From an uncultured Porphyromonadaceae bacterium (GTDB taxonomy: Bacteria; Bacteroidota; Bacteroidia; Bacteroidales; Muribaculaceae): DNA of 33,638 nucleotides. The position numbers and the translations under genes are program-made. The notes below the pieces were generated by a model. It searched no databases, was not told the DNA's origin, and saw only the letters and a list, made by a program, of their open reading frames with translations. Where the stretch lies: assembly GCA_947176605.1 (NCBI GenBank), contig CAMWRH010000027.1, positions 1-33,638 of the forward strand. The letters run 5' to 3'. This document shows, one piece after another, positions 4,238-29,242 of this stretch; the stretch's first letter is position 1; each line of letters begins with the position of its first letter.

Positions 4238-4240
4238 AGT

Positions 4241-8252: not shown

Positions 8253-8344
8253 GGATATTTCGTCAGATATACTGCAACGGGGGGATTACCATCGGGCCAA
8301 AGCCCGACATCAGCAGATGCCGCGGCGATATGGTGAGTTTCGGA

Positions 8345-8584: not shown

Positions 8585-8608
8585 ATCTATTGATTTTCCG
8601 TTTATGTG

Positions 8609-10009: not shown

Positions 10010-10053
10010 GAAGCAAACAGTGTGATTGATTAGTATTCAGCCAAGGTGGGGAA

Positions 10054-10791: not shown

Positions 10792-10799
10792 AAGAAGTT

Positions 10800-11429: not shown

Positions 11430-11430
11430 A

Positions 11431-12582: not shown

Positions 12583-12596
12583 ACCGAGAATGGAAA

Positions 12597-13877
12597 TTAA
12601 ATGCTTAAAATAGCATCTTTAAAGTTTCTGCTTACAATATCAGCATTGAAATATTGGTTGGCAATTGCACTTGCCCTTTTTAATGATTCCTCATTATTTC
12701 CATGTAGGGCTTGGTTGAGAGCGAGAATAAGATTCTCCTTTCCGCGCTTTGTTACGACTTGTGCACAATCCTTCCCTTTTAAAAACTCTGTCATCGCAAT
12801 TCCATCCGGACCGTAATAAATCATCGGTGTTCCCGAAGCAAGATATTCTCCCATTTTGGTAGACATAGAATATCGCGTGAACTTTGCAGTCTGGATGTCT
12901 ATAGATATCGGCAAGTATACGACATGCGCTGAAGCCAAAATATCGGGTATTTCAGTATTAGGGACAGGCGGGTGAATACGAGTACAAGGGGGAAGACTAC
13001 CGAGAAAGTTTTCAATCTGCTCAGCCGGCGTGTCGGTGAATATATCGAAATAGAGTTGCTCTACGTTTGAATTGATTTCTTCCACAGCTGCCATCATATC
13101 TCGCAAGGCAATATGGTTATGCCAACCGATTTTGCCGGTAAATACAATATTGGGCGTAGGTTGGAGTGTGCAATCAGAGGCGGTTATTCTTGCCGGATTT
13201 GTAAAGCAGGTGAATTTGTAGCCATATCTGTCGTTATACTCCTTTGCCATCATTTCGGTCGAGGAGAAGTAACCTGATGCAATTCCCAAAACTTCCTTGA
13301 GCAGCGCTTCGGCGTGTTGCCTATGATTAGACTCCCGTATAATCCTATATGAAGGCGAAAGCCAATCGTCAAATCCGTGAATGATGATTTTGATATCGGG
13401 AAATTTCTTATTTACCTCCAATATAAACTTGGCCATCGCGATGTCGCCGACGGATGTGTAAATCACATCCGGCTTAATTTCCTTAATCCACGCCTCAAAT
13501 TCACTACTGATTGAAAGTGCGAATCGTGTTTCATATAGATCCAATCGTTGCATCACGGGCCGAATGAATTTTTCATAACATACAGTTTTGAAAGATTTTT
13601 TCCGATTCGACTTCTCTTTTCTATCCTGTCTTACACCGCGGTGAGACACAGACGGATGAGATATATGATTAAACGGGAATGAATATGAAACCTCTTTATC
13701 TCCTAAAAAATAGAAATCGGCTACCTCTTTCGCGTATTCCGATTCTGTCAGAGATGCGCAAAACAGGTTCTCTTTAGGCCATTGTGAGAATAAATTGAGT
13801 GTCGTTATTGCATCACCGGCTTTAAATCCTCGCGAGAGAATAAGAATGCTAAAATCATTAGAATTTTTTATATCCAT
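12597..13877 (-). CDS. Glycosyltransferase, GT-B fold
   Basis: 426 residues. The N-terminal half is divergent, with a lysine/arginine-rich stretch around VRQDRKEKSNRKKS. The C-terminal half shows IVFTGKIGWHNHIALRDMMAA, LASAHVVYLPISID and STKMGEYLASGTPMIYYGPDG, the usual donor-binding half of GT4-like enzymes with a shifted acidic motif. Its start overlaps the stop of the wzy gene by 10 bp. It likely adds a sugar to the lipid-linked repeat unit. Assignment to family GT4 is less certain than for the neighbours. Confidence 0.78.
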   Translation of the reverse strand: MDIKNSNDFSILILSRGFKAGDAITTLNLFSQWPKENLFCASLTESEYAKEVADFYFLGDKEVSYSFPFNHISHPSVSHRGVRQDRKEKSNRKKSFKTVCYEKFIRPVMQRLDLYETRFALSISSEFEAWIKEIKPDVIYTSVGDIAMAKFILEVNKKFPDIKIIIHGFDDWLSPSYRIIRESNHRQHAEALLKEVLGIASGYFSSTEMMAKEYNDRYGYKFTCFTNPARITASDCTLQPTPNIVFTGKIGWHNHIALRDMMAAVEEINSNVEQLYFDIFTDTPAEQIENFLGSLPPCTRIHPPVPNTEIPDILASAHVVYLPISIDIQTAKFTRYSMSTKMGEYLASGTPMIYYGPDGIAMTEFLKGKDCAQVVTKRGKENLILALNQALHGNNEESLKRASAIANQYFNADIVSRNFKDAILSI

Positions 13878-14923
13878 GTTGGAGCAGATAATATAGTTTG
13901 GAAGGTGTCATAAAATTCCCCATAGGTTTCCCCTGTCATACCTGTCATGCTTCGTCTTATCATCAGTAAAGAATATATAGAAAGAATTCCATAACGGATT
14001 GTCTTATCTTTAATCTGATAGAGCATATTGGGGAAAGAGAAGATAAAGTATATGCTGAAATAGAGCATTAATCTAAGAAGAATCACGACAACGAATGTGA
14101 ATGGCAACAGAATGTATGAGAGGATTGAAATTATGCACACTATGGATTGGGCTTTCTTAATAGGACATGTACGCATTAAAAGAATAAGCCATAATATATC
14201 AAAAATGATGGTGAATGAATAACTGCCCTCATCACCCATTAGATAGCGATTGAATTTTTCGTCATCGAATATCACTGCCGCAATTTGAAAATACTCTATA
14301 TATTTTATTGATATAATAATAAGTACGCAAAAGGCAGCAACGCAAGAATAGACCCATATCCAACTGCGTATATTAGGTCGCCAATATCCAAATATAATTA
14401 TAGGAAGAAATATTATAGCAGTTTTGTGTATCGAACATGCGATTAGTATTACAATTAAGAACTTAATAATATTTTTCTGTGTAATATACTTAATTGAGTA
14501 GAACAAAATTGTCATTGCAAAGAATTGCCGCATCATTGAACATCCTAACAACTGAAAATTAAAAGTGAATGTAAAAATGAACACTGCAATCCACCAGTAT
14601 TTTTGAGGAACGTATATTTTTATATGCTTATATACGATATAATATTCTACGGCGGTTAAAAGAAATATCATACCCATAAACCCAATCGGTTGACATGCCA
14701 CATTAATTAGGACCCAACCAGGTTCACCGATTTCAGGGTCAAAGCCCCCGGAGCATTCCAAAAATGCTAAATAATAATTCCAATAATCATTACCATAATC
14801 ATAACGAATCCCGTAACATATTGACAATAAGATTTGGGAATACGTCATGAATTTTCTATTATTTTTGCTTGCAAGAAAAGCTAATATAACGGCACAGAAA
14901 TTTATAAAAAGAGCTGTGATCAT
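13868..14923 (-). CDS. wzy: EpsG-like polysaccharide polymerase (Wzy)
   Basis: 351 residues, nearly all hydrophobic, with about ten membrane segments. The signature GIRYDYGNDYWNYYLAF near the N-terminus is the R-Y-D-x-G-x-D-Y-x-x-Y motif of the EpsG family, which polymerises repeat units at the periplasmic side. I choose the ATG at 14921-14923 because it makes the common 4-bp ATGA overlap with the stop of the upstream glycosyltransferase. The frame is open slightly further. It is among the most AT-rich genes here, as is usual for Wzy. Confidence 0.9.
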   Translation of the reverse strand: MITALFINFCAVILAFLASKNNRKFMTYSQILLSICYGIRYDYGNDYWNYYLAFLECSGGFDPEIGEPGWVLINVACQPIGFMGMIFLLTAVEYYIVYKHIKIYVPQKYWWIAVFIFTFTFNFQLLGCSMMRQFFAMTILFYSIKYITQKNIIKFLIVILIACSIHKTAIIFLPIIIFGYWRPNIRSWIWVYSCVAAFCVLIIISIKYIEYFQIAAVIFDDEKFNRYLMGDEGSYSFTIIFDILWLILLMRTCPIKKAQSIVCIISILSYILLPFTFVVVILLRLMLYFSIYFIFSFPNMLYQIKDKTIRYGILSIYSLLMIRRSMTGMTGETYGEFYDTFQTILSAPTWI

Positions 14924-16131
14924 TCGTAAATGCAAAAATAATAGTTCAGATAACTCTTATACATATTTTCGGCATCATATTTCATGCTGGCTTCATGAGA
15001 TATAGATATTTTATCAAGGTGTTGGTTAAGCATCTCAACAACGCTTGAATTTAGCTTATAAATATCCCCATAGTCAACGAAACGTGAGTACTTGGGGATC
15101 GCGATTGTTTCCGGTGCTCCGGCTTTAAATCCGACAACCGGCGTGCCACAGCAAAGACTCTCGGCTGTAACCATAGAGAATGATTCTCTATACGAAGTCA
15201 ATAACGTTACGTTGGCTAAAGAGTAAAATTGTGCCAGTTCGGTCTTCGATTGAGTATGCTCAATCGGAATGACATTAGTAGGGAGATTCCGCATTTCGTG
15301 TCGCTTTATGCCTACGATTATAAATCGAACCTCCGGCATACGCTTTGCAAGTTCAATTACGTATCGACCACCCTTGATTGGTGCCGAAAAATTGGGTGTC
15401 ACATGCAATGCTATTTTCTCTCCATCCTCGATCTTTAGCCGCTTCTTTAGGTCCTCAGAATCGCTGTATGTAAAAGCCGAAGTGTCCAACCCATTGAGTA
15501 TAGTCCGCACCTCCCGGTCCTGAAAAAAGGGAGATGCTGTTACCCGGTCTGCCATCCAGTCCGAGACGCCGGAAGCGAATAGATGCCGTACTTTCGCAAA
15601 TGCATTCCTCATCTGCACCCAGGATAAATGGGTGGCATCAATCAGGAAAGAGCGTTTTTCCGACTTATTGGTAGCGCAACTTCCGCATCCGGTTTTCCAT
15701 TTCTGACATTCAAATGCATAATCGCAATTCGCAGTAATGGTCACATCGGCGTGATGCGTCACCAATACTTTATAATTTCTCTTGCCCAGATGCTTCAGCA
15801 ACATATATGGATTGATGTAAGCACAATTAAGGCAATGGAGATGCACTACATCTGGATTGATACTATCGATGTACTTCAGAAATCTTCGTGTCTCACAATA
15901 TGCGGCGTTGTATCGCAATCCGGTGATACGCGATATTTTACGATAAATTTCGCTGCGATTCCCCGGAGTTAGGCGATAGTAATGCTCCGGATCTTCTTTC
16001 TGCCAATCGCCCCCACGCCCGAAAGCCACAATGCTTTTATGGCCATCGCGCAACAAACGACGGTGAATGTCATCGACAATTTTACCCGTCGAGCCCTCTT
16101 TTGCGTAGATATTTATTTGTAAGACTGTCAT
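14920..16131 (-). CDS. Glycosyltransferase family 4 (GT-B)
   Basis: 403 residues from the ATG at 16129-16131, giving MTVLQINIYAKEGSTGKIVDDIHRRL. An in-frame TTG two codons upstream is less likely. The N-terminus matches the WcaC/PssD-like group (QIN...GSTGKI). The C-terminal domain has HVTPNFSAPIKGGRYVIELAKRMPE and the E-x7-E motif in SYRESFSMVTAESLCCGTPVVGF. A cysteine cluster, ANCDYAFECQKWKTGCGSCATN, may bind a metal and is typical of this subgroup. It overlaps the polymerase gene by 4 bp. It would add a sugar to the repeat unit. The specificity is unknown. Confidence 0.9.
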   Translation of the reverse strand: MTVLQINIYAKEGSTGKIVDDIHRRLLRDGHKSIVAFGRGGDWQKEDPEHYYRLTPGNRSEIYRKISRITGLRYNAAYCETRRFLKYIDSINPDVVHLHCLNCAYINPYMLLKHLGKRNYKVLVTHHADVTITANCDYAFECQKWKTGCGSCATNKSEKRSFLIDATHLSWVQMRNAFAKVRHLFASGVSDWMADRVTASPFFQDREVRTILNGLDTSAFTYSDSEDLKKRLKIEDGEKIALHVTPNFSAPIKGGRYVIELAKRMPEVRFIIVGIKRHEMRNLPTNVIPIEHTQSKTELAQFYSLANVTLLTSYRESFSMVTAESLCCGTPVVGFKAGAPETIAIPKYSRFVDYGDIYKLNSSVVEMLNQHLDKISISHEASMKYDAENMYKSYLNYYFCIYE

Positions 16132-16189
16132 TCGCAATTGGAGTCGGTAAATTCATAGATACGTTATGCAAACAAAAAGATATTGGTAA

Positions 16190-17368
16190 TCACTCTTTAC
16201 GCCATACCATTTTGTTGACCACTGTGACGTACGATTGAATAATCTTGACTACGATAGTCGATACATTTTCGCCAACGTAGAGATCTACCGGTGTCCCGTC
16301 GTCGTGGTTACGGTTCATGGCTATCGCAGTCTCTACAGCCTGGAGAAGTGATTTCTCATCGATACCGGCAAGTATGAATCCGGCATTGTCGAGCGATTCG
16401 GGTCGTTCGGTCGATGTGCGGATGCATATCGCAGGGAAGGGGTGGCCGATGGAGGTAAAGAAGCTTGATTCTTCGGGGAGAGTGCCGGAGTCAGAGATTA
16501 CGGCTGCAGCATGCATTTGCAGACAGTTGTAGTCATGAAATCCGAGAGGCTCATGCTGAATCACACGGGAATCAAGTTTGAATCCGGATTGTTCCAGACG
16601 TTTACGGCTACGCGGATGGCAGCTGTAGAGGATGGGCATATCGTATTTCTCAGCAATAGCGTTGATTGCATTAAATAGACTCCGGAAATTTTTCTCGGTG
16701 TCGATGTTTTCCTCGCGATGTGCCGAAAGGAGCATGTATTTCCCTTTTTCGAGTCCAAGACGCTGATGGATATCGCTTGCTTCGATATCTTTGAGATTTG
16801 CGTGGAGTACTTCGGCCATCGGCGAACCTGTGACGTATGTACGTTCCTTAGGCAGACCATTGTCGGCGAGATAACGGCGTGCGTGCTCGGAATAACAGAG
16901 GTTGACATCAGAGATTATATCGACTATACGGCGGTTGGTCTCTTCGGGCAGGCATTCATCTTTACAGCGGTTGCCGGCCTCCATATGGAAGATTGGTATA
17001 TGCAGACGTTTGGCCGAAATCGCCGACAGACAAGAGTTTGTGTCTCCGAGAATTAGAAGCGCATCGGGTTTTGTGGCTGCCATCAGTTTGTAGGAACAGT
17101 TGATGATGTTGCCGACGGTGGCTCCAAGATCGTCGCCGACGGCATCCATATATACTTCCGGCTCAGCGAGCTTTAGATCTTTGAAGAATACTCCGTTGAG
17201 GTTATAGTCGTAGTTCTGGCCGGTATGAGCAAGAATTACGTCGAAGTATTTGCGGCATTTATTGATTGTCGCGGCGAGTCGTATAATCTCGGGACGTGTG
17301 CCGACAATTATAAGCAGCTTAAGTCTGCTGTTTTCCGCGAACTTGATGTCAGTGTAATCTGTTTTCAT
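16190..17368 (-). CDS. capG: UDP-N-acetylglucosamine 2-epimerase-family enzyme, last step to UDP-L-FucNAc
   Basis: 392 residues, a GT-B-like epimerase fold: LLIIVGTRPEIIRLAA, HTGQNYDYNLNGVFF, LILGDTNSCLSAISAKR, FHMEAGNRCKDECLPEETNRRIVD. WecB itself uses UDP-GlcNAc. Here the two upstream genes are CapE- and CapF-like, so this is the third enzyme (CapG/FnlC) that epimerises C2 of the 6-deoxytalose intermediate to give UDP-N-acetyl-L-fucosamine. The 4-bp ATGA overlap with CapF supports this. Full length. Confidence 0.92.
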   Translation of the reverse strand: MKTDYTDIKFAENSRLKLLIIVGTRPEIIRLAATINKCRKYFDVILAHTGQNYDYNLNGVFFKDLKLAEPEVYMDAVGDDLGATVGNIINCSYKLMAATKPDALLILGDTNSCLSAISAKRLHIPIFHMEAGNRCKDECLPEETNRRIVDIISDVNLCYSEHARRYLADNGLPKERTYVTGSPMAEVLHANLKDIEASDIHQRLGLEKGKYMLLSAHREENIDTEKNFRSLFNAINAIAEKYDMPILYSCHPRSRKRLEQSGFKLDSRVIQHEPLGFHDYNCLQMHAAAVISDSGTLPEESSFFTSIGHPFPAICIRTSTERPESLDNAGFILAGIDEKSLLQAVETAIAMNRNHDDGTPVDLYVGENVSTIVVKIIQSYVTVVNKMVWRKE

Positions 17369-18570
17369 TTCTTTTCAACGGGGTCGAAAAATGTGTCAGG
17401 ATGATTTGGGTCGAAGGTTTCGTTGCAGTACATCACGGTGACGAGGTCTTCCGTATCGGATAGGTTGATGATATTGTGGGTATATCCGGGAAGCATGATT
17501 ACTGATTGAATTTTGTCGCCGCTTACTTCATATTCCAATACTTCATCTGATCCTTCTTTACGCATCTGTATCAGTCCGTGACCTTTTACTACGATAAACT
17601 GTTCCCACTTCGAGTTGTGCCAATGTTGACCCTTTGTGATTCCGGGCTTGGATATATTGATGCTTACCTGTCCGCACTTGTGAGTATGTACTAGTTCGGT
17701 AAACGAGCCACGGTCGTCGCAATTCATTTTCAGATTGAAAATAGCCTTCTCTTTAGGGAGGTAGGAGAGATAAGTGGAGAAGAGACGCTTTGCGAAACTA
17801 TCCGGTGCAATCTCGGGTATCATCAGTGTGGAGGAGATTGCGGCAAACTGATGCAGGAGGTCGACAATCTCACCCAGAGTGACGTGGAAAGTTGTAGGCA
17901 CCGCACAATAACGGCCATCGGCGTTGAGTACCGTTTCGACGCCATCGAATTCGCAGTGGTGTTCGCGCCCCTGCAGTGCGAGAATCATCTCATCTACGAG
18001 ATCGTCGATATAGAGTAATTCAAGTTCTACCGACGGATCGTTTACCTGAATCGGAAGGTCGTGGGCGATATTGTTGCAGAAAGTGGCTACAGCGGAATTA
18101 TAGTTTGGACGGCACCATTTCCCGAACAGGTTGGGGAAGCGGTAGATGAGAACCTTAGAGCCTACTTCGTCGGCATACTCAAAGAATAATTCCTCGCCGG
18201 CCTTTTTGCTTTCGCCGTAAGGATGTCCGGCATAACGGCCAATAAGAGTGGCCTGTATCGAACTTGACAACATCACGGGGCAACAATTGCCATGCTTCTT
18301 CAGAGTATCAAGCAGTGTTGATGCGAAGCCGAAATTCCCTTTTTTGAAATCTTCGGGATTCTCGGGACGGTTGACCCCGGCGAGATTGAATACGAAATCT
18401 GCCTCTTTGCAGTAGCGGTCAAGTTCGTCGGGAGTCGAGCCGATGTCGTATTCGAATACCTCATCGACCTTGACAGGATAATTCCTGGCCTTCCCCTCTT
18501 TTATGTTGTTGAGTTGAGCACAGAGATTCTTGCCTACAAATCCCTTGGCTCCTGTAACGAGAATTTTCAT
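17365..18570 (-). CDS. capF: CapF-like bifunctional epimerase-reductase (UDP-L-FucNAc pathway)
   Basis: 401 residues. An N-terminal extended SDR (VTGAKGFVGKNL, then YGESKKAGEEL with catalytic Tyr/Lys) reduces C4. A C-terminal cupin from about residue 305 (VSINISKPGITKGQHWHNSKWEQFIVVKGHGLIQMR) holds the metal-binding His motif that epimerises C3. This SDR-plus-cupin layout is specific to CapF/FnlB. It overlaps capG by 4 bp and follows capE by 55 nt, in the pathway order E, F, G. Confidence 0.94.
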   Translation of the reverse strand: MKILVTGAKGFVGKNLCAQLNNIKEGKARNYPVKVDEVFEYDIGSTPDELDRYCKEADFVFNLAGVNRPENPEDFKKGNFGFASTLLDTLKKHGNCCPVMLSSSIQATLIGRYAGHPYGESKKAGEELFFEYADEVGSKVLIYRFPNLFGKWCRPNYNSAVATFCNNIAHDLPIQVNDPSVELELLYIDDLVDEMILALQGREHHCEFDGVETVLNADGRYCAVPTTFHVTLGEIVDLLHQFAAISSTLMIPEIAPDSFAKRLFSTYLSYLPKEKAIFNLKMNCDDRGSFTELVHTHKCGQVSINISKPGITKGQHWHNSKWEQFIVVKGHGLIQMRKEGSDEVLEYEVSGDKIQSVIMLPGYTHNIINLSDTEDLVTVMYCNETFDPNHPDTFFDPVEKK

Positions 18571-18625
18571 TTTTAAAAGAATCGCTTCTTGAGACAGAGG
18601 CTCTTAGGCTCCATCATTGTGTAGC

Positions 18626-19699
18626 TTATTCAGAACGGATCTCTCTCTTGGTGTCCGCTTCAATCATTCCGAGGTCGGCCTGGATAAAGCGCAGACGCAT
18701 GAGTTGTTCTTTCATCCCCTCTACATCAAGACGTGTAGTGTTGTGGCTATGGTAATCATCGATTTTTGCAACTTCCTCATTACCCTCTATGAAGAATTTA
18801 TCGTAGTTAAGATCGCGGGTGTCGCAAGGGATTCGATAGTAATTGCCCATATCGATAGCCTTAGCCATCTCTTCGCGTGTGACGAGGGTCTCGTAAAGTT
18901 TCTCGCCGTGGCGTGTGCCGATTATCTTGACTTCGGTTTCTCCATATTTCGGGTCCACTTTAGAGTAAATCTGCTTCAAGGCCTCTGCGAGTGTAGCAAG
19001 TGTAGCTGCCGGAGCCTTCTGCACAAACAAGTCGCCATTATGACCGTGTGTAAAGGCATAGATTACCAGATCTACGGCATCATCGAGTGTCATCATGAAG
19101 CGAGTCATCTCCGGGTCTGTGATTGTGATAGGTTGCCCATCCATCATCTGCTCCACCCAAAGAGGTATCACAGAGCCGCGAGATGCCATTACGTTACCGT
19201 AGCGAGTGCAGCAGATAGTTGTAGTAGCATTCTCACCGAGTTCGCGTCCTTTCGAGATAGCCACCTTCTCCATAAGAGCCTTGGAGATACCCATGGCATT
19301 GATGGGATAAGCAGCCTTGTCGGTAGAAAGCACAACTACATTTTTTACCCCATGCTCGATTGCAGAGAGCAACACATTGTTGGTGCCTTCGACATTGGTT
19401 CGAGTGGCTTCCATCGGGAAGAATTCGCAACTCGGCACCTGTTTCAATGCGGCTGCGGAGAATACATAGTCGACGCCACGCATGGCAATATCGACAGATT
19501 CCTTGTTGCGCACATCTCCGATGAAATACTTTACCTTCGGATTCTGAAGACGATGACGCATATCATCCTGCTTCTTCTCATCGCGGCTGAAAATTCGGAT
19601 CTCTTTGATATCGGAATCAATAAAGCGTCGAAGAACGGCGTTGCCGAACGAGCCGGTACCTCCTGTAATCAGGAGTGTTTTATCTTTAAAAATCGACAT
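18626..19699 (-). CDS. capE: CapE-like UDP-GlcNAc 4,6-dehydratase / 5-epimerase
   Basis: 357 residues, extended SDR. The cofactor loop is ITGGTGSFGNAV, and AAALKQVPSCEFFPMEA and STDKAAYPINAMGISKALMEK are diagnostic of the FlaA1/CapE family. The usual catalytic Tyr-x3-Lys reads Met-x3-Lys (MGISK), as in CapE and related inverting dehydratases. It makes the 4-keto-6-deoxy intermediate for UDP-L-FucNAc with capF and capG downstream. PseB-type activity (pseudaminic acid) is ruled out by the neighbours. Confidence 0.94.
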   Translation of the reverse strand: MSIFKDKTLLITGGTGSFGNAVLRRFIDSDIKEIRIFSRDEKKQDDMRHRLQNPKVKYFIGDVRNKESVDIAMRGVDYVFSAAALKQVPSCEFFPMEATRTNVEGTNNVLLSAIEHGVKNVVVLSTDKAAYPINAMGISKALMEKVAISKGRELGENATTTICCTRYGNVMASRGSVIPLWVEQMMDGQPITITDPEMTRFMMTLDDAVDLVIYAFTHGHNGDLFVQKAPAATLATLAEALKQIYSKVDPKYGETEVKIIGTRHGEKLYETLVTREEMAKAIDMGNYYRIPCDTRDLNYDKFFIEGNEEVAKIDDYHSHNTTRLDVEGMKEQLMRLRFIQADLGMIEADTKREIRSE

Positions 19700-19717
19700 T
19701 ATCTCAGTATTAATTTA

Positions 19718-21013
19718 TTAATTTATTAGTTCCAAAAATTCGTCCATCATGTTCTGTCCAACACTCTTTTCCCCGGGGGGCAATAAGTTCTCTTTTACGA
19801 ATGCTAATCTGGCCTCTTTCATGGGATCTTCGCCGGCTAATATCACATTCGTCAGGAAGGAGATAATATCTTCCTTACACGTGCCTTTGTAATAGTTACG
19901 GAAGCAGGCGCTGCCGAAGTTGTTGTTTATCCCTGGAGGAACGAGATCGGTTTTAACAGTGTATAAGCCTGGATTTCCGGTCAGAAGGTATTCACATACG
20001 AAAGACGCACTATCATGTATGATGCCGTCAGAGTGTGCGAATAAATCGGCATATTCCCCATCGCAGATAAATGTATTTGACATTTCAGCCCACTTATTAT
20101 AGTAGTTGTCAGCAGTTTCTCTGCCCCATTTATCAATCAGTCTCTGTTTAAGCAAAGGATGAGGTTTAAAGGCGAATTCTATTTCATTTTCAAACTGCTT
20201 GGCAATCTCTATCATGGAATCACAAATCAGTTCGAAACATGAATTTTCAAAAGAAAACTTATTGTCAATAGAATGATGAGGTGCCCAGATTATCTTTTTC
20301 TTATTTTTTGATCGCCATGGATTGGTTTTAGGCGTTTTTAGCCTGTCATAAGAGACAAATCCCGTGACCACCTGATTATCTTTTCCTACTGATTGGCAGT
20401 TTTTAAAAATATCCTTCTCGAGTTCTGAACCGACAAATATTTTCCAAGCAATGTTTGTAAGATATGTATTATAGAAATACTCTCCGCCGGAAACAGAGAT
20501 GCCATACGGTGTATATATGAAGAGAGAGTGTTGCTTAAACGCATCAATTAGCCATGGTCCATAACCGATATTGTATGGCTGTGTATAGATTACAATATCG
20601 TGGTCGGCAGGATTCAGATTATAGTAGCTATCGTTGTCAAAGTCGTATCCGGCAATAAAAGGTATGCGGTTGTTGTCGCAATAACGGCGGATATCCTCTT
20701 GCTGCCTGGAAGATGTGGCTTTATCAAACCCCGGTATAATGAAAGAGACCACCAGAATTTTAAATCTTGGATTCTCCAGAAGAAGCTTGATGAGATCATC
20801 ATACTTCCACATGCTTAGATTTGTTACAAAGAAGAGAACGTTAATAACCTCTTTAGCTTTGACATTTTGTAGTATGGCATCCCGATATGTCAGATATTCT
20901 TTGGCCTTCCGTAAGTCGGCTTCTCTGTTTTTTTGATTTCGGTAGTTTTTATACCTCACAAATCCCTTTTCTCCAATAATGGTCCGGAATATATTGAACA
21001 GTAATTTCTTCAT
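19718..21013 (-). CDS. TagF/CDP-glycerol-phosphotransferase-like protein
   Basis: 431 residues. The C-terminal half fits the Glyphos_transf (PF04464) pattern: KKIIWAPHHSIDNKFSFENSCF, EIEFAFKPHPLLKQRLIDKW, then GEYADLFAHSDGIIHDSASFVCEYLLTGNPGLY. The AP-H, KPHP and D-x-S-S/A-F blocks of the family are visible. Such enzymes transfer an alditol-phosphate from a CDP-activated donor onto a polysaccharide. This locus makes CDP-choline and has no LicD, so transfer of phosphocholine is an attractive alternative, but that is inference. It could also use CDP-glycerol or act as an ordinary glycosyltransferase-like protein. The gene lies 3 nt after wzx. Confidence 0.72.
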   Translation of the reverse strand: MKKLLFNIFRTIIGEKGFVRYKNYRNQKNREADLRKAKEYLTYRDAILQNVKAKEVINVLFFVTNLSMWKYDDLIKLLLENPRFKILVVSFIIPGFDKATSSRQQEDIRRYCDNNRIPFIAGYDFDNDSYYNLNPADHDIVIYTQPYNIGYGPWLIDAFKQHSLFIYTPYGISVSGGEYFYNTYLTNIAWKIFVGSELEKDIFKNCQSVGKDNQVVTGFVSYDRLKTPKTNPWRSKNKKKIIWAPHHSIDNKFSFENSCFELICDSMIEIAKQFENEIEFAFKPHPLLKQRLIDKWGRETADNYYNKWAEMSNTFICDGEYADLFAHSDGIIHDSASFVCEYLLTGNPGLYTVKTDLVPPGINNNFGSACFRNYYKGTCKEDIISFLTNVILAGEDPMKEARLAFVKENLLPPGEKSVGQNMMDEFLELIN

Positions 21014-21016
21014 ATA

Positions 21017-22453
21017 TCAGCGTCGTATAATCAATATTTTAGCCTCTTTAAAGGAGTCCTTATCAACGATATACACAATCAAGGGATAAGAGATGATTCC
21101 TATGCATATTGCTATGATAGTATGTATCAGAATCTCCATGTGTAAGAAATAGCTTACGGCAAAGACAATCAACCCCATGATACTCGCACACAACAAGGGC
21201 TTCAGAATATCCTTGATCTGTTGCCATAGCGTGATGGATATAAGTTTAGATGTATAAAATGAATTCATGTATACAGCGAGTAAGCCATAAACAACTCGAC
21301 CGACGCAGACACCGATTATCCCCCAGTAAAGGCTTATGAAAAATATAATAATCGCCAGAGTTTTCTTGATAATCTCAAGCTTGAGGGCTAAATCTGACCG
21401 TCCTTTTACATACAATACATTGAGATTGATCGATGAAAGATGGTCAGTCATCCAGTCTATACAGAGGATTTGCAACATCGGCACCATCATAAGCCATTTA
21501 TTGGTGAGAACCAGAATGGTAAGTGGTTTTGCCAGCACAATCATCCCAATCATTATAGGGAAGATGATAAGTGATGAGAAAACTATATACTTTGAATAGG
21601 CTGATCTTAACCGGCTGTTATCGTCCTGTATGCGACTAAATATCGGGAAGGCTACTCTTGATATGACCTGACCAATTATTTGAGGTGGATACATAGCCAA
21701 TGTATCGGCACGGTTAAAATAGCCTAAGTCTGTCGCTGAGAATTTTTTCCCGATTACTACCGGATATATATTGCGATATAGTAAATGGATTAATGATGCA
21801 CCAAGTAGTTTGGAACTATATACAAACAGACTCTTAAACGCCTTTCGTGAAAATATAAAGGAGGGATGCCATTTGATTGTGGCATAGAAGAGTATTGTCT
21901 GCATCGAAATATTGGTCAGCGTCAATAAGACTAAAGCCCAGACCCCTATACCTCGATATGCAAAATATATAGATATCATTGCCGCACAGACAGATGACAC
22001 TAATGTGATTATAGACTGGCGCTTGAATTGCAGTTCTACAGTAAGTCGGGTACGATGTACCGAAACCAGAGCTCCAATTACAAAATTCAATCCTACTACA
22101 CGGGTTAATGATGTCAGCTGGGCATTATCAAAGAATCGTGCAATCAGTGGAGAACAGAAAAACAGTATAGTATAGAGTCCGATTGAAATTGCGAGATTAA
22201 AGAAGAAGACGGTACTATAATCGGTCTGATTGCGGTCTTTTTTCTGTATAAGAGCGTTGCTGAACCCGCTGTCGATAAATGTCTGTGCAATCTGAACGAA
22301 TATTGAGATTACAGCCAGCAAGCCGAAGTCCTTGGGTGAAAGAAGTCTGGCCAAGATTATATTGGCCAAGAATATCACGCCGCCGGTAGAGAATCTCTCT
22401 ACCGCGCTCCACGCCACACCCTTAACAGTCTCTTTCTTAAGATTTTCACCCAA
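21017..22453 (-). CDS. wzx: Wzx flippase (WzxC-like, MATE/MOP superfamily)
   Basis: 478 residues with about 12-14 membrane segments. The start KKETVKGVAWSAVERFSTGGVIF and LARLLSPKDFGLLAVISIF, then DSGFSNALIQKKDRNQTDYSTVFFF, are typical of WzxC-type exporters, which flip lipid-linked repeat units across the inner membrane. The start codon is TTG at 22451-22453. No in-frame ATG exists nearby, and the family start matches this point. An overlapping TAATTTTG resembles a -7 box but covers the start codon, so I do not count it as a promoter. It is paired with the EpsG-like Wzy at 13868. Confidence 0.93.
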   Translation of the reverse strand: MGENLKKETVKGVAWSAVERFSTGGVIFLANIILARLLSPKDFGLLAVISIFVQIAQTFIDSGFSNALIQKKDRNQTDYSTVFFFNLAISIGLYTILFFCSPLIARFFDNAQLTSLTRVVGLNFVIGALVSVHRTRLTVELQFKRQSIITLVSSVCAAMISIYFAYRGIGVWALVLLTLTNISMQTILFYATIKWHPSFIFSRKAFKSLFVYSSKLLGASLIHLLYRNIYPVVIGKKFSATDLGYFNRADTLAMYPPQIIGQVISRVAFPIFSRIQDDNSRLRSAYSKYIVFSSLIIFPIMIGMIVLAKPLTILVLTNKWLMMVPMLQILCIDWMTDHLSSINLNVLYVKGRSDLALKLEIIKKTLAIIIFFISLYWGIIGVCVGRVVYGLLAVYMNSFYTSKLISITLWQQIKDILKPLLCASIMGLIVFAVSYFLHMEILIHTIIAICIGIISYPLIVYIVDKDSFKEAKILIIRR

Positions 22454-22542
22454 AATTATAAAAGATTTGAGGATTCCCGAAAATTTGAGATCTCTTGCTG
22501 ATTATTACCGAATCTAAATACCTGCTCCAGTCGCAGATGATT

Positions 22543-24063
22543 TTATACCTTGTGACTCTCATTCAGCCATCTTTTGAAATCCTTGAAAAAGCTAATCACT
22601 ATTAAGATTATAAGGATTCCAACAGGGAATGCTGCAATTATGGTAACGCCTTGCAGACTATACAGTGAGTTCTGTGCGAAGAGAAGGGCTATCGGCAGCA
22701 GAATAAGCATTATACTCCAAAAGCCTCGAATACCTCTGGAGGGCTCTTCGTCAGGCAGTATGCGTTTGTAACTGTAGGATGAGGTTACGTAGGTTATTCC
22801 ATCTAAGGTTGTGCTGTAAAAAGCTATCATTGTCACTACTAAGAGAATCAACGCCAGCCAGGGTAATGGCAGAGTATCGAAAATCATCAATATAGCTTCG
22901 TACATCTCTCCGCCGTTGCCAATATAGCCGATTGCATCGACCCCATGCTTCATTTGCTGTGCCAGACCGTAGTTGCCAAGGATAATGAACGACATATAGG
23001 TCCCGGCAAGTCCCCATCCAAATGAGCCGAATACGACGTTGCGGATAGTACGTCCTTTGGAAATAAGGGCAATAAAGAATGGTGTGGCCACACACCAGAC
23101 TAACCAATATGCCCAGTAATATACGGTCCAGTTCTGTGCAAATCCGTTCTCTCTCAAAGGATCCATATACGTTGACAGACCGATAAAGTTCTGAATGAGA
23201 TTGCCCATAGATTGGAAGCCTGTCTCTATTATGTATTGAGTCTCACCACCCAGGAAAAGGAAATATAGGAGAATGGCAAAGAAGAGATAGGCGCATATAC
23301 CTGCCAGTTTGCTAATTCCGGTTATTCCGAATAGGACTGTTACCGTATAGATTGTACATATAAGAAGAAGTACGAGAATCGTGACAGATGTAGTCGCTTC
23401 AAACCCAAATACCGAGCCCATTGCATTCGTCAGCAGGGGTGTCGCCAATGAGAAGGTAGTAGCAGTGGCACAGACGATTGCAAAGATGGCTGTCACGTCA
23501 ATCACTTTACCCCATATTCCATCTACCGCGTTTCCAAGAAGCGGTCGGCAAGCTTCAGAAAAACGTTGTCTCTGGCGTTTGCGGACATGAATCATAAAGG
23601 CAAAACATACAGCCAGTATAACATAAAATCCCCATGCAAGAGGTCCCCAATGGAAGAGGGTGAATGTGGGTGCCCACATTTGAGTTCCTCCAAGTTCCTC
23701 GATATGTGATTCGCCTCCATATAACGCCCACTCTATAAGAGAATAGAACATGATATCAGCAGCCATTGTGGATGTGAATATCATACTGCCCCATTTGAAA
23801 TTGGAATACTCAGGCTTTTCAATATTACCTAATTTTACGTTGGCATATTTAGGGGTTAATGCGAAATATAAAGTTATCAATACACAACCAATCGCTAAGA
23901 TGGGATAGTAGACACCGATTGTGTCACCAAAAAATCCACGTAGTGTATCAACTACATTCTTTGATTGTTCCGGCTCAATCATAAACACCGCCATCATAGC
24001 AACTACAATGGCAAAAGGTATGAGCATGGTAGCCCAGTCAATCTTTTTCGACTCAGTTGTCAT
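22543..24063 (-). CDS. BCCT-family choline/betaine transporter
   Basis: 506 residues, about 12 membrane segments. Signatures are IEWALYGG, FHWGPLAWGFY (the aromatic substrate box region) and YYWAYWLVWCVATPFFIALISKGRTIRN, the BCCT hallmark. It imports a quaternary amine using a sodium or proton gradient. Position within the lic genes, 2 nt after the choline kinase fusion, makes choline the likely substrate, taking the role that LicB plays in Haemophilus. In the classical lic operon the transporter is of another family, so this is a different solution to the same need. Confidence 0.92.
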   Translation of the reverse strand: MTTESKKIDWATMLIPFAIVVAMMAVFMIEPEQSKNVVDTLRGFFGDTIGVYYPILAIGCVLITLYFALTPKYANVKLGNIEKPEYSNFKWGSMIFTSTMAADIMFYSLIEWALYGGESHIEELGGTQMWAPTFTLFHWGPLAWGFYVILAVCFAFMIHVRKRQRQRFSEACRPLLGNAVDGIWGKVIDVTAIFAIVCATATTFSLATPLLTNAMGSVFGFEATTSVTILVLLLICTIYTVTVLFGITGISKLAGICAYLFFAILLYFLFLGGETQYIIETGFQSMGNLIQNFIGLSTYMDPLRENGFAQNWTVYYWAYWLVWCVATPFFIALISKGRTIRNVVFGSFGWGLAGTYMSFIILGNYGLAQQMKHGVDAIGYIGNGGEMYEAILMIFDTLPLPWLALILLVVTMIAFYSTTLDGITYVTSSYSYKRILPDEEPSRGIRGFWSIMLILLPIALLFAQNSLYSLQGVTIIAAFPVGILIILIVISFFKDFKRWLNESHKV

Positions 24064-24065
24064 TC

Positions 24066-25649
24066 TTAATTGATTTTTAATCTTTCTAAGTTGGTTATAA
24101 CTCGGTTAAATCTATCTTGTCCATAAGATCCGAAATCATCTCCTTTTGCCTCTTTGATGACTGTCCATTGCGACCAAAGATAATCCCATAAAATCTGATA
24201 ACAAAGGATCTTTATGTGTGCATTGGCAGGAACTGCACCGTCAAAATATTTATCAAGTATGTAGTCTTCATTCGCTTTCTCAAATCCGGCTTCGATAAAT
24301 AGAGCAGCAAAGTCGGCCATAGGGTCGTTCATGCCGGAGTATTCCCAATCAATTAGATAGATTGTCCCATCTTCTGATTTAATAAAATTCTCATATAGAG
24401 CATCATTATGGCAAGGTTTGAGATCGACTCCTAAAGAATTCAGATAACCTTCCAGAGCCATAACCCGCGGACGTATTTCCTCCCAGCCTTCATACATGGT
24501 AGCTCCGGCTTTCGCAATTAATGCGTCGTATTTCTCAATCTCTATGAAAAGATTAAACTCATTCTTTAACCTTATTTTCGAGTTATGAATCTTTTGATAT
24601 ATAGCCGCAATTTTACGCATGTTGTCATGGCGTTGAATAGTTGCGGCATTCAATGTCTCTGCATTTTCTATGAAGTCGGCGAGCTTGATTCCGTTTTCCG
24701 GATTGAAATACCTTATCGGCGGATTTATCCCTAACTTGCAGGCCTCGATTGCATTAAATTCTTCGTTAGTTCTTTCCACCATCCCGTCGGAGCCATTACC
24801 GGGAACGCGGAGCACATACTGTTTACCTTCAAGTGTAACTTTGAAGTTCTTGTTGCTCATGCCACCAATCTTCTCGATCCGAACTTTAGAGACATCAGCA
24901 TCTTTGAAAATTATCTTTATATGATTTCTCAGATTCTCCTCATCAAATGGATTCTCTTTTCGGCACAGACTACGATAAATGCTGTTCTGAAGTTTTTTAA
25001 AATCTTCCTTGCAGTCGACATCTCCCCAGATTACATTTTTAAACCGGATATACGGACGATCCAGTGGGTCGGTGACATCAATAAAAAGATATTCATAATT
25101 GAGATATGGATTGGATGAATTCTCCCAGGCATCAATCAACTTGGCGAAAGTATCTTTTGAGAATCTTGAGATGCCCATTAATTCCCCCTCAAAGTTGCAT
25201 ACTCTATGGCGATCTTTGGTTATTTTTGTGACAAACCCATGTTTTGTCTCAACGAAGCATTCATCTCCAGAGCCACTCTCTTCAGTCATTGATAAACAAT
25301 TACCTTCTGCTACTGCCGACAGTTGCTCAATTACTCTTTTTTCAAAGAAGGTGTCTCCCTCAACAAGTAGGAAGTCCTCTTTGATGTAATCTTTGCAAAG
25401 AGCCAGTGAACCCATTGAAGCTGTAAACTCATACTCTTTGTTGAAGATTAAAACTGTATCATTCGCCTTAAAACGTAGAAATTCCTCATATTTATACCCT
25501 GCAACAATGATTATATTTCTATAACCGCAATCTCTAAGGATAGAGAGGTTTCTATCCATAAGGCATATATCTTCTGCAAATGGCTTAACAGGATATGGAA
25601 TCTCGCAATCTTTTTCTTTGCGAGCAGCAAGAATGACCGCAGTTGTCAT
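24066..25649 (-). CDS. Fusion: nucleotidyltransferase-like domain + LicA choline kinase
   Basis: 527 residues. Residues 1 to about 230 form an NTP-transferase domain: VILAARKEKDCEIPYPVKPF takes the place of the usual LAAG-x-GTR loop, while the metal-binding aspartates survive in VEGDTFFE (Asp99) and WGDVD (Asp210). Residues about 243-527 are a choline/aminoglycoside kinase: GGMSNKNFKV, YVLRVPG, CHNDALYENF (His414, Asn415, Asp416, Asn421) and LIDWEYSGMNDPMADFA (Asp434), all intact. The kinase makes phosphocholine from ATP. The N-terminal domain may add a second nucleotidyl activity or be structural, because a separate LicC lies upstream. Stop and start overlap by 4 bp (ATGA) with licC. Confidence 0.9.
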   Translation of the reverse strand: MTTAVILAARKEKDCEIPYPVKPFAEDICLMDRNLSILRDCGYRNIIIVAGYKYEEFLRFKANDTVLIFNKEYEFTASMGSLALCKDYIKEDFLLVEGDTFFEKRVIEQLSAVAEGNCLSMTEESGSGDECFVETKHGFVTKITKDRHRVCNFEGELMGISRFSKDTFAKLIDAWENSSNPYLNYEYLFIDVTDPLDRPYIRFKNVIWGDVDCKEDFKKLQNSIYRSLCRKENPFDEENLRNHIKIIFKDADVSKVRIEKIGGMSNKNFKVTLEGKQYVLRVPGNGSDGMVERTNEEFNAIEACKLGINPPIRYFNPENGIKLADFIENAETLNAATIQRHDNMRKIAAIYQKIHNSKIRLKNEFNLFIEIEKYDALIAKAGATMYEGWEEIRPRVMALEGYLNSLGVDLKPCHNDALYENFIKSEDGTIYLIDWEYSGMNDPMADFAALFIEAGFEKANEDYILDKYFDGAVPANAHIKILCYQILWDYLWSQWTVIKEAKGDDFGSYGQDRFNRVITNLERLKIN

Positions 25650-26518
25650 ACTCTCTTTATTGAATTATCAGATTCTTGGTACTGAAAAACTTCATTGTCT
25701 TTCAGGAATGAGAATAAAAGATAATTTCCATCGTGAGGAATTTTTTTGAATCCTGACAATTCGTCTTCAGTACAATTCATTTTTAAAGCAATCTCCCGAA
25801 TAATAGATGATCTTGTATTTTTGATATATGAATTGTCGAAATGTCTTAGTTCATCAATAGAGTCAAACTCCTCGATATCAGTGTCATTATATTTCTTTAT
25901 GGATATGGGAGGTAGACTGGTGATATGGTTGATGTAGACATCTTCCCAATATCCCTGTCGTACATTCTCCTTTTTATATTCCTCAATAAGAATGCTTTTG
26001 AATGCATCGCTAAAATCGCGTGAGAAATACACGTGTCCCACCATATACCAGGAATCTTCTCCTCCGACCGTCACTCCAATTATATTATCTTCTGAATCTG
26101 AAGTGATGCAATATTCTGTAGTAGGACCCTCGGCGTACTTAGCGCTATAATAACTCTTGACGGGATTGTCGTTAAATACATTCTCTGGGAAGTAATTATC
26201 TGAAGAGCAGATATATGTATTGCCGAGACGATCTAAAACCCGAATTACAGAGGATGTATTATTATATCTGTCGTAATCTTCATTTATCACGAGTTCTACG
26301 CCAAATTTTTCTCTAAGGTATTCAAACTTCGCCGCTTGGTAGCCCACGACTATTGTTATGTCGAAAATTCCGGCTTCCTGCAGCTGTCGTATCTGTCGCT
26401 CGATAAGTATTTCTCCTTTGACATCCAAAAGCCCTTTCGGAATTTCGGATGATAATGGTACAAATCGCGACGAAGTCCCTGCTGCCAGTATTATCGCATT
26501 TCGCTTCAGATCAGTCAT
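25646..26518 (-). CDS. licC: LicC-like CTP:phosphocholine cytidylyltransferase
   Basis: 290 residues from the ATG at 26516-26518. An in-frame TTG at 26525-26527 overlaps the upstream stop and would add three residues. The NTP-transferase motif is intact: AIILAAGTSSRFVPLSSEIPKGLL. The metal-binding aspartates are likely Asp107 (ICSSDNYF) and Asp219 (IEEFDSIDEL). It would make CDP-choline from the phosphocholine produced by the adjacent kinase. It has a C-terminal tail of about 60 residues beyond the catalytic fold (SSIIREIALKMNCTEDELSGF onward). The choline role rests on the LicA neighbour. Confidence 0.88.
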   Translation of the reverse strand: MTDLKRNAIILAAGTSSRFVPLSSEIPKGLLDVKGEILIERQIRQLQEAGIFDITIVVGYQAAKFEYLREKFGVELVINEDYDRYNNTSSVIRVLDRLGNTYICSSDNYFPENVFNDNPVKSYYSAKYAEGPTTEYCITSDSEDNIIGVTVGGEDSWYMVGHVYFSRDFSDAFKSILIEEYKKENVRQGYWEDVYINHITSLPPISIKKYNDTDIEEFDSIDELRHFDNSYIKNTRSSIIREIALKMNCTEDELSGFKKIPHDGNYLLFSFLKDNEVFQYQESDNSIKRV

Positions 26519-26523
26519 CCTTT

Positions 26524-27309
26524 TCAAAAAGCGAGATTTACAGTGAAATTGATAAATGATTTATTAAATACAGGGTTATAGATGTATGCAACATTCAGAG
26601 GTATACCCCAACCATTTTTGAATGCGACATTATAAGTGTATTTAAGTTCAAGATTGCAGACTGAGAAATCGTGCTCGTATGCGTTATAGCATGACCGGTT
26701 GAGGGCGGTTCCTACAGTAAGTGATATCTTATTGTTCTCTAAGAAGTCATAGTATGTTCCTAACTCCAGATATGTAGAGTAGGCTTGCTTTTCCTTTCCA
26801 TTAGAGTCGATATATTTATCAGCTCCATAAAAGAAGTTGCTGATTGTGACCCATAAGGGAATTCGTGATGGTGCATATGTAACTACTCCTTCAAGCCAAT
26901 GGCCGGTGTGTTTGCCGCCTTTAAGGTATTTATCCTCATTACTATCGATTGTAGGATAGTAATAGTCATTCAATCCTATATTGAAATCCTTGATTGTGTA
27001 GTTGATTCCTAAATCAACCTCCGCATATTTGCCATTGACGGCATATCCTCCCATCGCATAGATATTCAGACCTTTGTAAGTATAGCTCATTGAAGGGAAA
27101 AGGACAGGTGCTGAATTCTCTGTCATCATCTCCATTCCACGCCAGACGTATTTTGTCTGAATATCCAGGCCAAGGCCGAACGGTGATTTAATCAGTTTCC
27201 CACCCCAGTTGTTCTTTTCTACTGAATCTGTAGTAATTTCTTCTGCAAATGTGGTTGAATTGCCTAAGATAAGGCTCAGTACGATTAGTAATACTGCTTT
27301 TGCATTCAT
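26524..27309 (-). CDS. Outer-membrane beta-barrel protein (porin-like) leading the choline module
   Basis: 261 residues. A signal peptide (MNAKAVLLIVLSLILGNSTTFAEE) is followed by alternating aromatic strands such as GLGLDIQTKYVWRGM, YAMGGYAVNGKYAEVDLGINYTI and LELGTYYDFLENNKISLTVGTALNR. It ends in an aromatic residue (FINFTVNLAF), the outer-membrane insertion mark. It resembles the TorF-type putative porins (YVWRG near the N-terminus). It is the first gene of the lic module and ends within 10 nt of licC, so a specific outer-membrane entry route for choline is a reasonable guess. Its start codon lies in the arm of an inverted repeat (27305-27318). Confidence 0.82.
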   Translation of the reverse strand: MNAKAVLLIVLSLILGNSTTFAEEITTDSVEKNNWGGKLIKSPFGLGLDIQTKYVWRGMEMMTENSAPVLFPSMSYTYKGLNIYAMGGYAVNGKYAEVDLGINYTIKDFNIGLNDYYYPTIDSNEDKYLKGGKHTGHWLEGVVTYAPSRIPLWVTISNFFYGADKYIDSNGKEKQAYSTYLELGTYYDFLENNKISLTVGTALNRSCYNAYEHDFSVCNLELKYTYNVAFKNGWGIPLNVAYIYNPVFNKSFINFTVNLAF

Positions 27310-27371
27310 TCTTTTAATTCAAATGTTGATTTTTGTAGATCGGATGTGTATAGAACTATTAAAAGAATGAA
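27305..27371 (-). promoter_or_regulatory. 14-bp inverted repeat that buries the start codon of the porin-like gene
   Basis: 27358-27371 (attaaaagaatgaa) is the exact reverse complement of 27305-27318 (ttcattcttttaat), separated by 39 nt. In the minus-strand RNA the downstream arm includes the purine-rich AAAAGA and the AUG (27309-27307) of the next gene, so pairing would hide the translation start. The upstream arm overlaps the 3' arm and U-run of the hairpin 27364-27430, so the two structures exclude each other. Confidence 0.6.
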
Positions 27372-27430
27372 CCGGGGAGATAGTCAGATGTAAGATTGTT
27401 GTGTAAAATATAATCTTCCCGATTCATTCT
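27364..27430 (-). terminator. Terminator-like long-loop hairpin in the capsule leader
   Basis: 17-nt arms agaatgaaccggggaga (27364-27380) and tcttcccgattcattct (27414-27430) match at 15 positions. In the minus-strand RNA one of the others is a G-U pair and one an A-C mismatch, and the loop is 33 nt. The 3' arm runs into CUUUUAAUAG. It lies between the regulator gene and the first capsule gene, where an attenuator would be expected. Another imperfect stem (27484-27497 with 27504-27518, loop tgcagg, one bulge and one mismatch) lies further upstream, just after the regulator's stop. No good TAnnTTTG promoter was found between 27310 and 27550. Confidence 0.5.
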
Positions 27431-27550: not shown

Positions 27551-29242
27551 TCAGTTGGCGGGGGCCACGAGGCGCGGGTCGAGGTCGGCCTCCCATTCTA
27601 TGCCGTTGTCGGCGGGGAGGATGAGGCGGTAGAGGATGGGGAGGGAGGCGGGGAGAGTAGGCTGTGTATCGGTGGTGTCGGGTGTGTCGGGGGCGCTGAC
27701 GGTACCGGGAGCCGATGGAGTCACTGAAGCGAGGTAGCGGCCGGTGCGTCCGGCAAACGGACCTCCGATCACCACTACCTGTTGCCCCGGACGGGGCGGT
27801 ATGGTGCCAAGAGGGCGCACATCGGTCTCGGGCGTGAATATGCCGATGGCCAGCTGAAAGGCCTGCATCTCGCAATCGGGGATGCGGGCGTAGCCGCGTC
27901 CCGAAGGGTGGCGGTAGCACCAGGCCAGATCGGCGATGCGTGCCAGCAGCGGCTGCAGCCGGCTGACGCGTATGCGGATAAAGAGCACATCGGGTATCAG
28001 GGCCTCCTCGCCGTGGCGTATGCCATGCGCGGTGCGGTGGGCCACAGGGCGCATCGGATAGAACGTATCGGCCGGGGAGAGCGCTCCGGAATCCCTGTCG
28101 GAAGCGATGCGGTCAATGCGCTGGCGGAGTCCGGCGATGTCGGTGCCGCGCCGCAGGCGCAGGGCGTACCAGCGCAGCGGGTCGGCTGCCACAGCCTCGG
28201 CCACGAGCCGGCGCAACCGGTCGGGCGCCTCCGAATCGGGCGCCTCGGCGGGCGCGGCTGCATCGAGCAGGGTGAATATATCCGCCTCCGTGGTGTGGCG
28301 CATCGGATTGCGCCCCGAAGTGAGCAGCGCCTCCGAGGGGGTGGCTCCGCAGCGCAGGGCCGTCAGAAACCATTCCATTGCCGGAGCCGGAGTCTGGCGG
28401 AGTGCGGCATCACCGCAATTCTCAACCGATCGGGCGATGCGCCGGGCCATCCGGCGCGGCGTGTAGGCGCTCTGACGGAGCGGGAAGAGGTAGCGGCGGC
28501 GCGGGTCGGCGTATGCGGCGGCAATATCCGCCAGTTCGGCGGGATAAGCCGGGAGATCATCGCGGCGCAGGCGTGCTGCCGCCTCCAGACTGATCCCTCC
28601 GGCTATTACGGCGGCCTTGTGCAGGTCGCGCAGCAGCGGAGCCGGAATCATCTCATCGGCGGGTATCGTGTCGTCGGCCGGACGCAGGGGAGATGCGTGA
28701 CGGCGCGCGTCCGTGGAGGCAGAGTCGCACTTGCGTGCGGCCTCGATGTCGGCCAGACGGGCGCGGAGCGCCGGATAGTCGGGGAGTGCCGACGGCGCGG
28801 CGCCCTCGGCGACAGCACTGCGGTGCAGGCTGCTGATGCCATTGAGGTAAAGACGCAGGGTGGAGAGGGTGTGGCCGGAGAGGCTGAGGGAAATCAGCCA
28901 GTCGGCTATGGTGCGGGTGGAGAGGGGTTCGTAAATAAGCTGGAATGTAGCAAGGAAGGTGCGCAGCGATGTGAGGGCCTTGGCATAGGAGCGGGCGGCT
29001 GCGGAGTCGCCGAGCCGGGCAAGCTGCAGTGTGAATGCCGGAAGTAGCGCTTCGGGTGTGGATTCGAAAAAACAATCCTGTGTGCCGATAGCAATATCCT
29101 GGCAGTCAGGGGGATATGAGGTGAAGGGATGTTTAACCTCCGGGGCTTCCCCATCTAAACACTCTTTCCCCTCGGCGGCACTTGAATGTCGGGGAGGGGT
29201 GGAGGTGGTGCCTCGGGAGGCGTTGCGTTGTAAAGTAGTCAT
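27551..29242 (-). CDS. Recombinase-like / NusG (UpxY-like) fusion, candidate capsule antiterminator
   Basis: 563 residues from the ATG at 29240-29242, chosen because a perfect promoter lies 64 nt upstream; the longer open frame would run through it. Residues about 60-145 look like the SAM-like core-binding domain of tyrosine recombinases (ARSYAKALTSLRTFLATF, TLRLYLNGISSLH). About 195-325 resembles their catalytic domain, but the expected Arg, HxxR and Tyr are not recognisable. Residues 357-470 read as an NGN domain (RWYALRLRRGTD, DVLFIRIRV, GYARIPDCEMQAFQLAIG), and 484-505 is a KOW motif (RPGQQVVVIGGPFAGRTGRY). UpxY proteins of Bacteroides (about 170 residues) head capsule operons and prevent early termination. 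This gene has the same position with an added DNA-binding half. The gene is very GC-rich. The NGN-KOW call is fairly sure; the recombinase-like call is moderate. Confidence 0.78.
   Translation of the reverse strand: MTTLQRNASRGTTSTPPRHSSAAEGKECLDGEAPEVKHPFTSYPPDCQDIAIGTQDCFFESTPEALLPAFTLQLARLGDSAAARSYAKALTSLRTFLATFQLIYEPLSTRTIADWLISLSLSGHTLSTLRLYLNGISSLHRSAVAEGAAPSALPDYPALRARLADIEAARKCDSASTDARRHASPLRPADDTIPADEMIPAPLLRDLHKAAVIAGGISLEAAARLRRDDLPAYPAELADIAAAYADPRRRYLFPLRQSAYTPRRMARRIARSVENCGDAALRQTPAPAMEWFLTALRCGATPSEALLTSGRNPMRHTTEADIFTLLDAAAPAEAPDSEAPDRLRRLVAEAVAADPLRWYALRLRRGTDIAGLRQRIDRIASDRDSGALSPADTFYPMRPVAHRTAHGIRHGEEALIPDVLFIRIRVSRLQPLLARIADLAWCYRHPSGRGYARIPDCEMQAFQLAIGIFTPETDVRPLGTIPPRPGQQVVVIGGPFAGRTGRYLASVTPSAPGTVSAPDTPDTTDTQPTLPASLPILYRLILPADNGIEWEADLDPRLVAPAN

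Follow-up and report, generated by a model that had tools for sequence, protein, structure and literature searches.

Two accounts of capsule choice in Bacteroidales describe control at two levels: recombinases invert promoters, and UpxY proteins act in antitermination (PMC12632263, PMC12118408). One of them gives the order of elements at these loci as an integrase or invertase, an invertible promoter, and then UpxY or NusG (PMC12118408). UpxY-like proteins of Parabacteroides distasonis are small, with tabulated lengths of 179 to 192 aa (PMC9409006). Recruitment of recombinase parts is known from plants, where ALOG domains are described as derived from a recombinase DNA-binding part, with a zinc ribbon (PMC3537659). 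No description of a NusG or UpxY protein with a recombinase part was found in the open-licence literature.

The window analyzed here, a stretch of 33,638 nucleotides from an uncultured Muribaculaceae bacterium, carries a gene that combines these two kinds of protein. Domain matches and the alignment of catalytic residues confirmed that residues ~65 to 330 of the predicted product derive from a tyrosine recombinase and that residues ~355 to 563 form a UpxY/NusG module; the original prediction, a single protein that joins a UpxY-type NGN-KOW module to a dead recombinase, was thereby borne out. We consider that the protein is probably a UpxY/NusG-type antiterminator of its capsule operon, in which a domesticated, dead recombinase makes up the N-terminal half and serves as the recruitment or specificity part. 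Like UpxY (NF033644), the fusion has the NGN-KOW module and occupies the first-gene place in a capsule locus. Unlike UpxY, it carries about 270 recombinase-derived residues ahead of that module; with 46.9 bits, the window protein also falls short of the curated cut-off of 100 bits. With the integrases and invertases of the tyrosine-recombinase type in Bacteroidales it shares core-binding and catalytic regions that are homologous over 251 columns, as well as the Trp of the RHSWA motif. It differs from them in that the window protein has none of the catalytic residues, the Lys hairpin is deleted in 45 of 46 fusions, and the fusion profile contains nothing equivalent to the N-terminal part of the integrases (~110 residues). 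RfaH and LoaP are likewise specialised NusG paralogues, but these are single NGN-KOW proteins without a recombinase part. In ALOG domains, the N-terminal DNA-binding part of a tyrosine recombinase is likewise described as recruited for regulation, whereas the fusion retains the catalytic region too, joined to a NusG-type factor (PMC3537659).

The reading frame of the fusion was open over its entire length in the ORF check, and the sequence flanking its ATG is conserved in an alignment with the two nearest relatives. A frameshift artefact as the origin of the fusion was ruled out, because the full-length frame is conserved across many genomes. Among fusions, mean pairwise identity was highest in the NGN domain (0.39), followed by KOW (0.30), the catalytic region (0.27), and the core-binding domain (0.24). 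The KOW domain carries a variable low-complexity insert at residues ~506 to 530. A structure model of the fusion protein, built from a two-sequence alignment of the window protein and its relative L031, reached a mean pLDDT of 37.9.

Table 1. Positions of the features discussed, numbered along the whole window
Feature	Positions	Strand	Basis
Promoter-like TTTG-N20-TAACTTTG, ending ~64 bases before start codon	29306..29337	-	Pattern
Fusion CDS, 563 aa	27551..29242	-	Open frame; family of full-length relatives
Core-binding (SAM-like) recombinase domain, residues ~65-147	28802..29050	-	Integrase HMM match to residues 60-160; Pfam SAM models in relatives; hhalign
Degenerate recombinase catalytic region, residues ~200-320	28283..28645	-	Joint alignment with 12 intact integrases; hhalign; catalytic-region profile
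NGN domain, residues ~355-470	27833..28180	-	UpxY model at 391-504; NusG of 8syi; conservation
KOW domain, residues ~484-563	27554..27793	-	Pfam KOW; alignment
Stem-loop between fusion gene and capsule genes	27364..27430	-	Repeats; RNA fold
Capsule locus downstream of fusion, ~27 kb	391..27309	-	ORFs, Pfam

The C-terminal half of the window protein was matched by the NCBIfam UpxY model at residues 391 to 504 (E 2.8e-12) and by Pfam KOW at residues 485 to 501 (E 0.0015, under the curated cut-off), in agreement with the NGN and KOW domains that had been proposed for this end of the protein. A NusG from a solved complex (8syi) aligned to residues 348 to 508 in a phmmer search (E 0.0036). All 20 members of alignment A1, the window protein included, matched the UpxY model at E ≤ 1; the RfaH model matched 7 of them and the LoaP model 11, in each case weakly. 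Across the window's genome, the UpxY model matched only the fusion and one protein of 189 aa, which we took for the housekeeping NusG.

Matches of the N-terminal half to Pfam were weaker for the window protein alone (Phage_int_SAM_1, E 0.065). Among the 20 A1 members, Phage_int_SAM_5 was found in six (best E value, 1.1e-11), Phage_int_SAM_1 also in six (best, 1.7e-7), and an NCBIfam tyrosine-recombinase model in three (best, 0.0011). A profile of 12 intact integrases matched residues 60 to 160 of the window protein with an E value of 1.4e-9 in a search of this one sequence, and none of 200 shuffled versions was among the matches listed. Residues 190 to 345 on their own gave none among the matches listed, so the assignment of the catalytic region rests on the family alignment. 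When 16 fusion N-terminal parts were compared with the 12 integrases in hhalign, the two families were related with a probability of 99.5% (E 2.7e-22). Separate profiles of the core-binding and catalytic regions of the fusions each retrieved 12/12 integrases and 0/335 control proteins (E ≤ 1). In the family genomes, the fusion profile also retrieved ordinary integrases of ~400 aa over profile positions ~15 to 270, with E values down to ~1e-21, and an integrase-only profile matched 47 of 76 fusion frames (loci counted with duplicates). Against the PDB, the N-terminal profile gave a RaiA-labelled chain first (E 0.0001); XerD followed with an E value of 0.0012, and Cre with values from 0.015.

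To score catalysis, six positions were considered in a joint alignment: Arg, Lys, the two of H/Y-x-x-R, His/Trp, and the nucleophilic Tyr. All six were intact in each of the 12 integrases, and the window protein retained none. Arg, HxxR, and Tyr had been predicted to be missing; Lys is absent as well, and an intact pentad was not seen. Across 46 distinct fusions, the window's included, 25 retained no catalytic position, 17 retained one, and 4 retained two. The Lys hairpin is among the gaps of the window protein, and the Trp of the RHSWA motif (W291) was kept there and in every other fusion (46/46). Judged by its sequence, the recombinase part is catalytically dead.

Capsule-type genes follow the fusion in the window and in its relatives. 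The fusion is the first gene of a capsule locus and lies on the same strand (ORFs, Pfam), as the proposed place at the head of a capsule operon implied. The genes behind it encode a nucleotidyl transferase, a choline kinase, a BCCT transporter, a flippase, epimerases, glycosyltransferases, EpsG, and acyl-chain-type proteins; the terminal gene encodes an initiating sugar transferase, and some genes match no family. For 19 of 20 fetched fusion relatives, six same-strand downstream genes were obtained, counting genes of at least 150 aa on the same strand and not requiring contiguity. At L091 (G193:C63), genes on the opposite strand follow the fusion and there were zero genes to tally; at L076, the end of the fusion was placed by hand on account of an N run ahead of it. 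The 114 downstream proteins of the 19 relatives included 11 Glycos_transf_2, 10 Polysacc_synt, 8 Polysacc_synt_3, and 5 LicD matches, compared to at most one of each in a control set of 120 proteins taken from 20 arbitrary stretches; the same controls contained two Glycos_transf_1 and two Epimerase matches.

Several other elements of the window were observed around the fusion. Close to where the capsule locus begins, at 22543 to 26527 on the minus strand, lie the genes for the choline kinase, the nucleotidyl transferase, and the choline-type BCCT transporter, which suggests that the polysaccharide may be decorated with phosphocholine. Upstream of the fusion, at 29659 to 31632 (minus strand), a 657-aa protein with a C-terminal tyrosine-phosphatase domain is encoded (Y_phosphatase3, E 1.2e-12). 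The stem-loop between the fusion and the capsule genes has 18-base arms that are 89% complementary and is followed by a U-rich stretch; the RNA fold of 27310 to 27550 gave a z score of -3.77. It was considered as an antitermination target and rejected: although it folds well, it was not seen in an alignment with the two nearest relatives. It was also not listed by a terminator scan confined to short loops. In the same gap, positions 27338 to 27360 resemble, inexactly, what we take to be sequencing-adapter sequence, possibly an assembly blemish.

Upstream of the fusion lies a fixed sequence that we read as promoter-like by the Bacteroidales consensus (Table 1), and its TAACTTTG element is conserved in the two nearest relatives. 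An invertible promoter was searched for at the window locus and not found: no inverted-repeat pair of at least 12 bases with a long spacer flanks the promoter-like sequence upstream of the fusion, and the two nearest relatives also have no such pair. Upstream inverted repeats were present in 17 of 48 fusion loci and the window locus is among the 31 without a pair. This count comprised loci, the window included, for which 350 or more upstream bases were available, after removal of duplicates by sequence; L018, L011, and L053 had less than 350 bases and were left out, and an N run in L014 was not scored as a repeat. At the 17 loci, exact inverted repeats of at least 13 bases had starts 164 to 251 bases apart, with the nearer copy 91 to 193 bases before the conserved domain. 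Of 400 control windows, each 960 bases long, 2 contained a repeat of at least 13 bases; the spacing limits were 100 to 450 for controls and 80 to 500 for fusions, and related loci are not independent. Two palindromes, CTCTTnnnAAGAG, were present in 11 of the 48 loci, and L042 and L046, which are among the 31 loci without a pair, retain a single one. The window's genome contained no exact TCTCTTnnnAAGAGA, and the other seven genomes of that search had 1 to 11 sites each.

The segment between the repeats could be compared for orientation in the only pair of loci that was similar enough, L059 (G214) and L061 (G210), which come from two related genomes and not from one strain. It aligned in inverted orientation with a score of 187 versus 34. 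Both segments contain the same promoter-like sequence, which is directed at the fusion in one locus and in the opposite direction in the other. Capsule switches upstream of some fusion relatives appear to flip. Four of five intact integrases examined adjoin the same palindrome. In G152, two of them adjoin a pair of it; the fifth, at L145 (G021), had no palindrome nearby. In G121 and G161, the order is an integrase with catalytic motifs, repeats, and then the fusion, with the GH motif unmatched by the pattern in G121. Separate intact recombinases and invertible promoters, of the kind mentioned in the original prediction, were encountered beside some relatives.

The surface of the recombinase part has changed. 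On average, fusions kept ~19% of the basic residues that are conserved in intact integrases, and those of the interdomain linker were also mostly lost. Mean net charge fell from +6.9 in integrases to +1.7 in fusions for the core-binding part plus linker and from +6.6 to +1.5 for the catalytic region; for the core-binding part alone it was little altered (+0.8 and +1.0, respectively). Likely core positions W115, W291, and A295 were retained. Fusions with repeats had a mean charge of +4.1 (n = 15) and those without had +1.9 (n = 29; P = 0.035, uncorrected for kinship and other tests, and with the single-palindrome loci L042 and L046 left out); this difference was set aside as evidence.

We propose that the NGN-KOW part would load on RNA polymerase where capsule transcription begins, so that the long operon is read, and that the recombinase part, with its fold retained and catalysis gone, would serve for recruitment or specificity. 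DNA close to the promoter, or an invertase bound to it, may still be recognised by the recombinase part. We favor recruitment near the promoter because the recombinase fold appears to be retained and its place is kept, and the "DNA-tethered" antiterminator of the original prediction is plausible. The low proportion of basic residues kept and the lack of an exact palindrome copy in the window's genome count against simple retention of DNA binding. Since basic residues were lost and 31 of 48 loci, the window's included, have no repeat pair, site recognition is unlikely to be unchanged at such loci; the recombinase part may bind DNA in an altered way or bind the invertase itself. A more specific version is that the dead domain recognises the palindrome flipped by its active cousins and delivers the antiterminator solely at promoters that face the operon, which would couple switch state and read-through in one protein. 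At loci of the window type, the promoter would then be fixed and another mode of recognition adopted. We regard this version as possible but rather doubtful.

The retention of likely core positions while conserved basic residues were lost, together with the greater divergence of the recombinase part (identity of 0.24 to 0.27) than of NGN (0.39), would also fit a fold that is off DNA and acts as a lid or docking part, keeping NGN-KOW from other operons. In Bacteroides, there are separate UpxZ inhibitors, which such a part would replace. We consider this unlikely, as the UpxY model finds only the fusion and the presumed housekeeping NusG in the window's genome, so that there is no rival UpxY to be kept from. 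Alternatively, the dead part could pair with an active invertase or occupy its sites and thereby alter switching of the capsule promoter, with the UpxY part reading the operon; if the protein is made only in the ON state of the promoter, it would feed back on the switch. The membership of fusions in one family with intact integrases that adjoin repeats, the repeats directly before the fusion in 17 loci, and their opposite orientation in two genomes speak for such a role. However, the 31 loci without a repeat pair, the lack of an exact palindrome in the window's genome, and the loss of most conserved basic residues make it quite unlikely.

The fusion family physically joins parts of both capsule-control layers in Muribaculaceae, which are gut commensals by inference, and, because the capsule switches ahead of some relatives appear to flip, one protein may link both layers. 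How a NusG paralogue locates its own operon could be tested with this family, which also illustrates the conversion of a recombinase into a regulator.

A census of the fusion, which had been suggested along with the original prediction, showed that it recurs: related fusions were found in 48 of 225 family genomes and 8 of 26 genera (E ≤ 1e-60), and capsule-type genes lie downstream of the fetched relatives. Several of these genomes have between two and four copies; the matches include partial ones, and an in-frame stop interrupts three copies. Among 392 genomes of the order, the sole match at 1e-30 was the window's own genome; this sample held at least six other family members without the fusion and at most four candidates were scored per genome, so copies in other parts of the order, if rare or diverged, were possibly missed. 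A scan of viral contigs found no fusion relatives, and a scan of genome contigs returned a single one (L031); this is identical in contig and position to L002 of G038, a genome of the window's genus.

In the NGN-KOW tree, 49 of 51 fusions fell in a single starred clade, which also took in three "solo" rows: L010, with its frame cut by the contig end; L076, which follows an N run; and L074, a split gene. Because L082 and L129 fall outside the clade, the fusion may have had a second origin. The recombinase-part tree places L077 and L082 on long branches among the integrases, and two changes of the fusion label are required on it. The N-terminal half would stem from that family of Bacteroidales integrases to which the promoter invertases also seem to belong, most likely from a neighboring integrase gene, since the order of integrase, invertible promoter, and UpxY is described in Bacteroidales. 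The simplest history would be that two regulators fused and catalysis was lost. That the fusion is a mere fossil, a read-through product of adjoining integrase and upxY genes with a recombinase half now unused, would suit the variable sequence and lost catalysis of this half, the G165 relative without the entire catalytic region, and the three copies with internal stops, but it is very unlikely given that full-length open copies persist in several genera and that W291 is invariant and other positions conserved.

Other arrangements of the same parts were observed among the relatives. In G151, the recombinase and UpxY parts are encoded by separate genes, with the stop codon of one overlapping the start codon of the other. 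In G165, a shorter relative (L077, 2463 to 3422) has the core-binding part joined straight to UpxY, without the catalytic region, and is preceded by a 28-base inverted repeat of different sequence. A 355-aa recombinase part in G221 is directly followed by a flippase-like reading. A UpxY variant of 384 to 393 aa, with an N-terminal NGN-KOW and a long C-terminal extension, is encoded at L145 (2692 to 3870) and L144 (1489 to 2640). Divergent pairs of UpxY-type genes occur at L144 (1489 to 3602) and L147 (2448 to 3891). At L144 (G228), the palindrome pair lies in and beside the gap between the divergent genes, where one flipping promoter might serve two operons.
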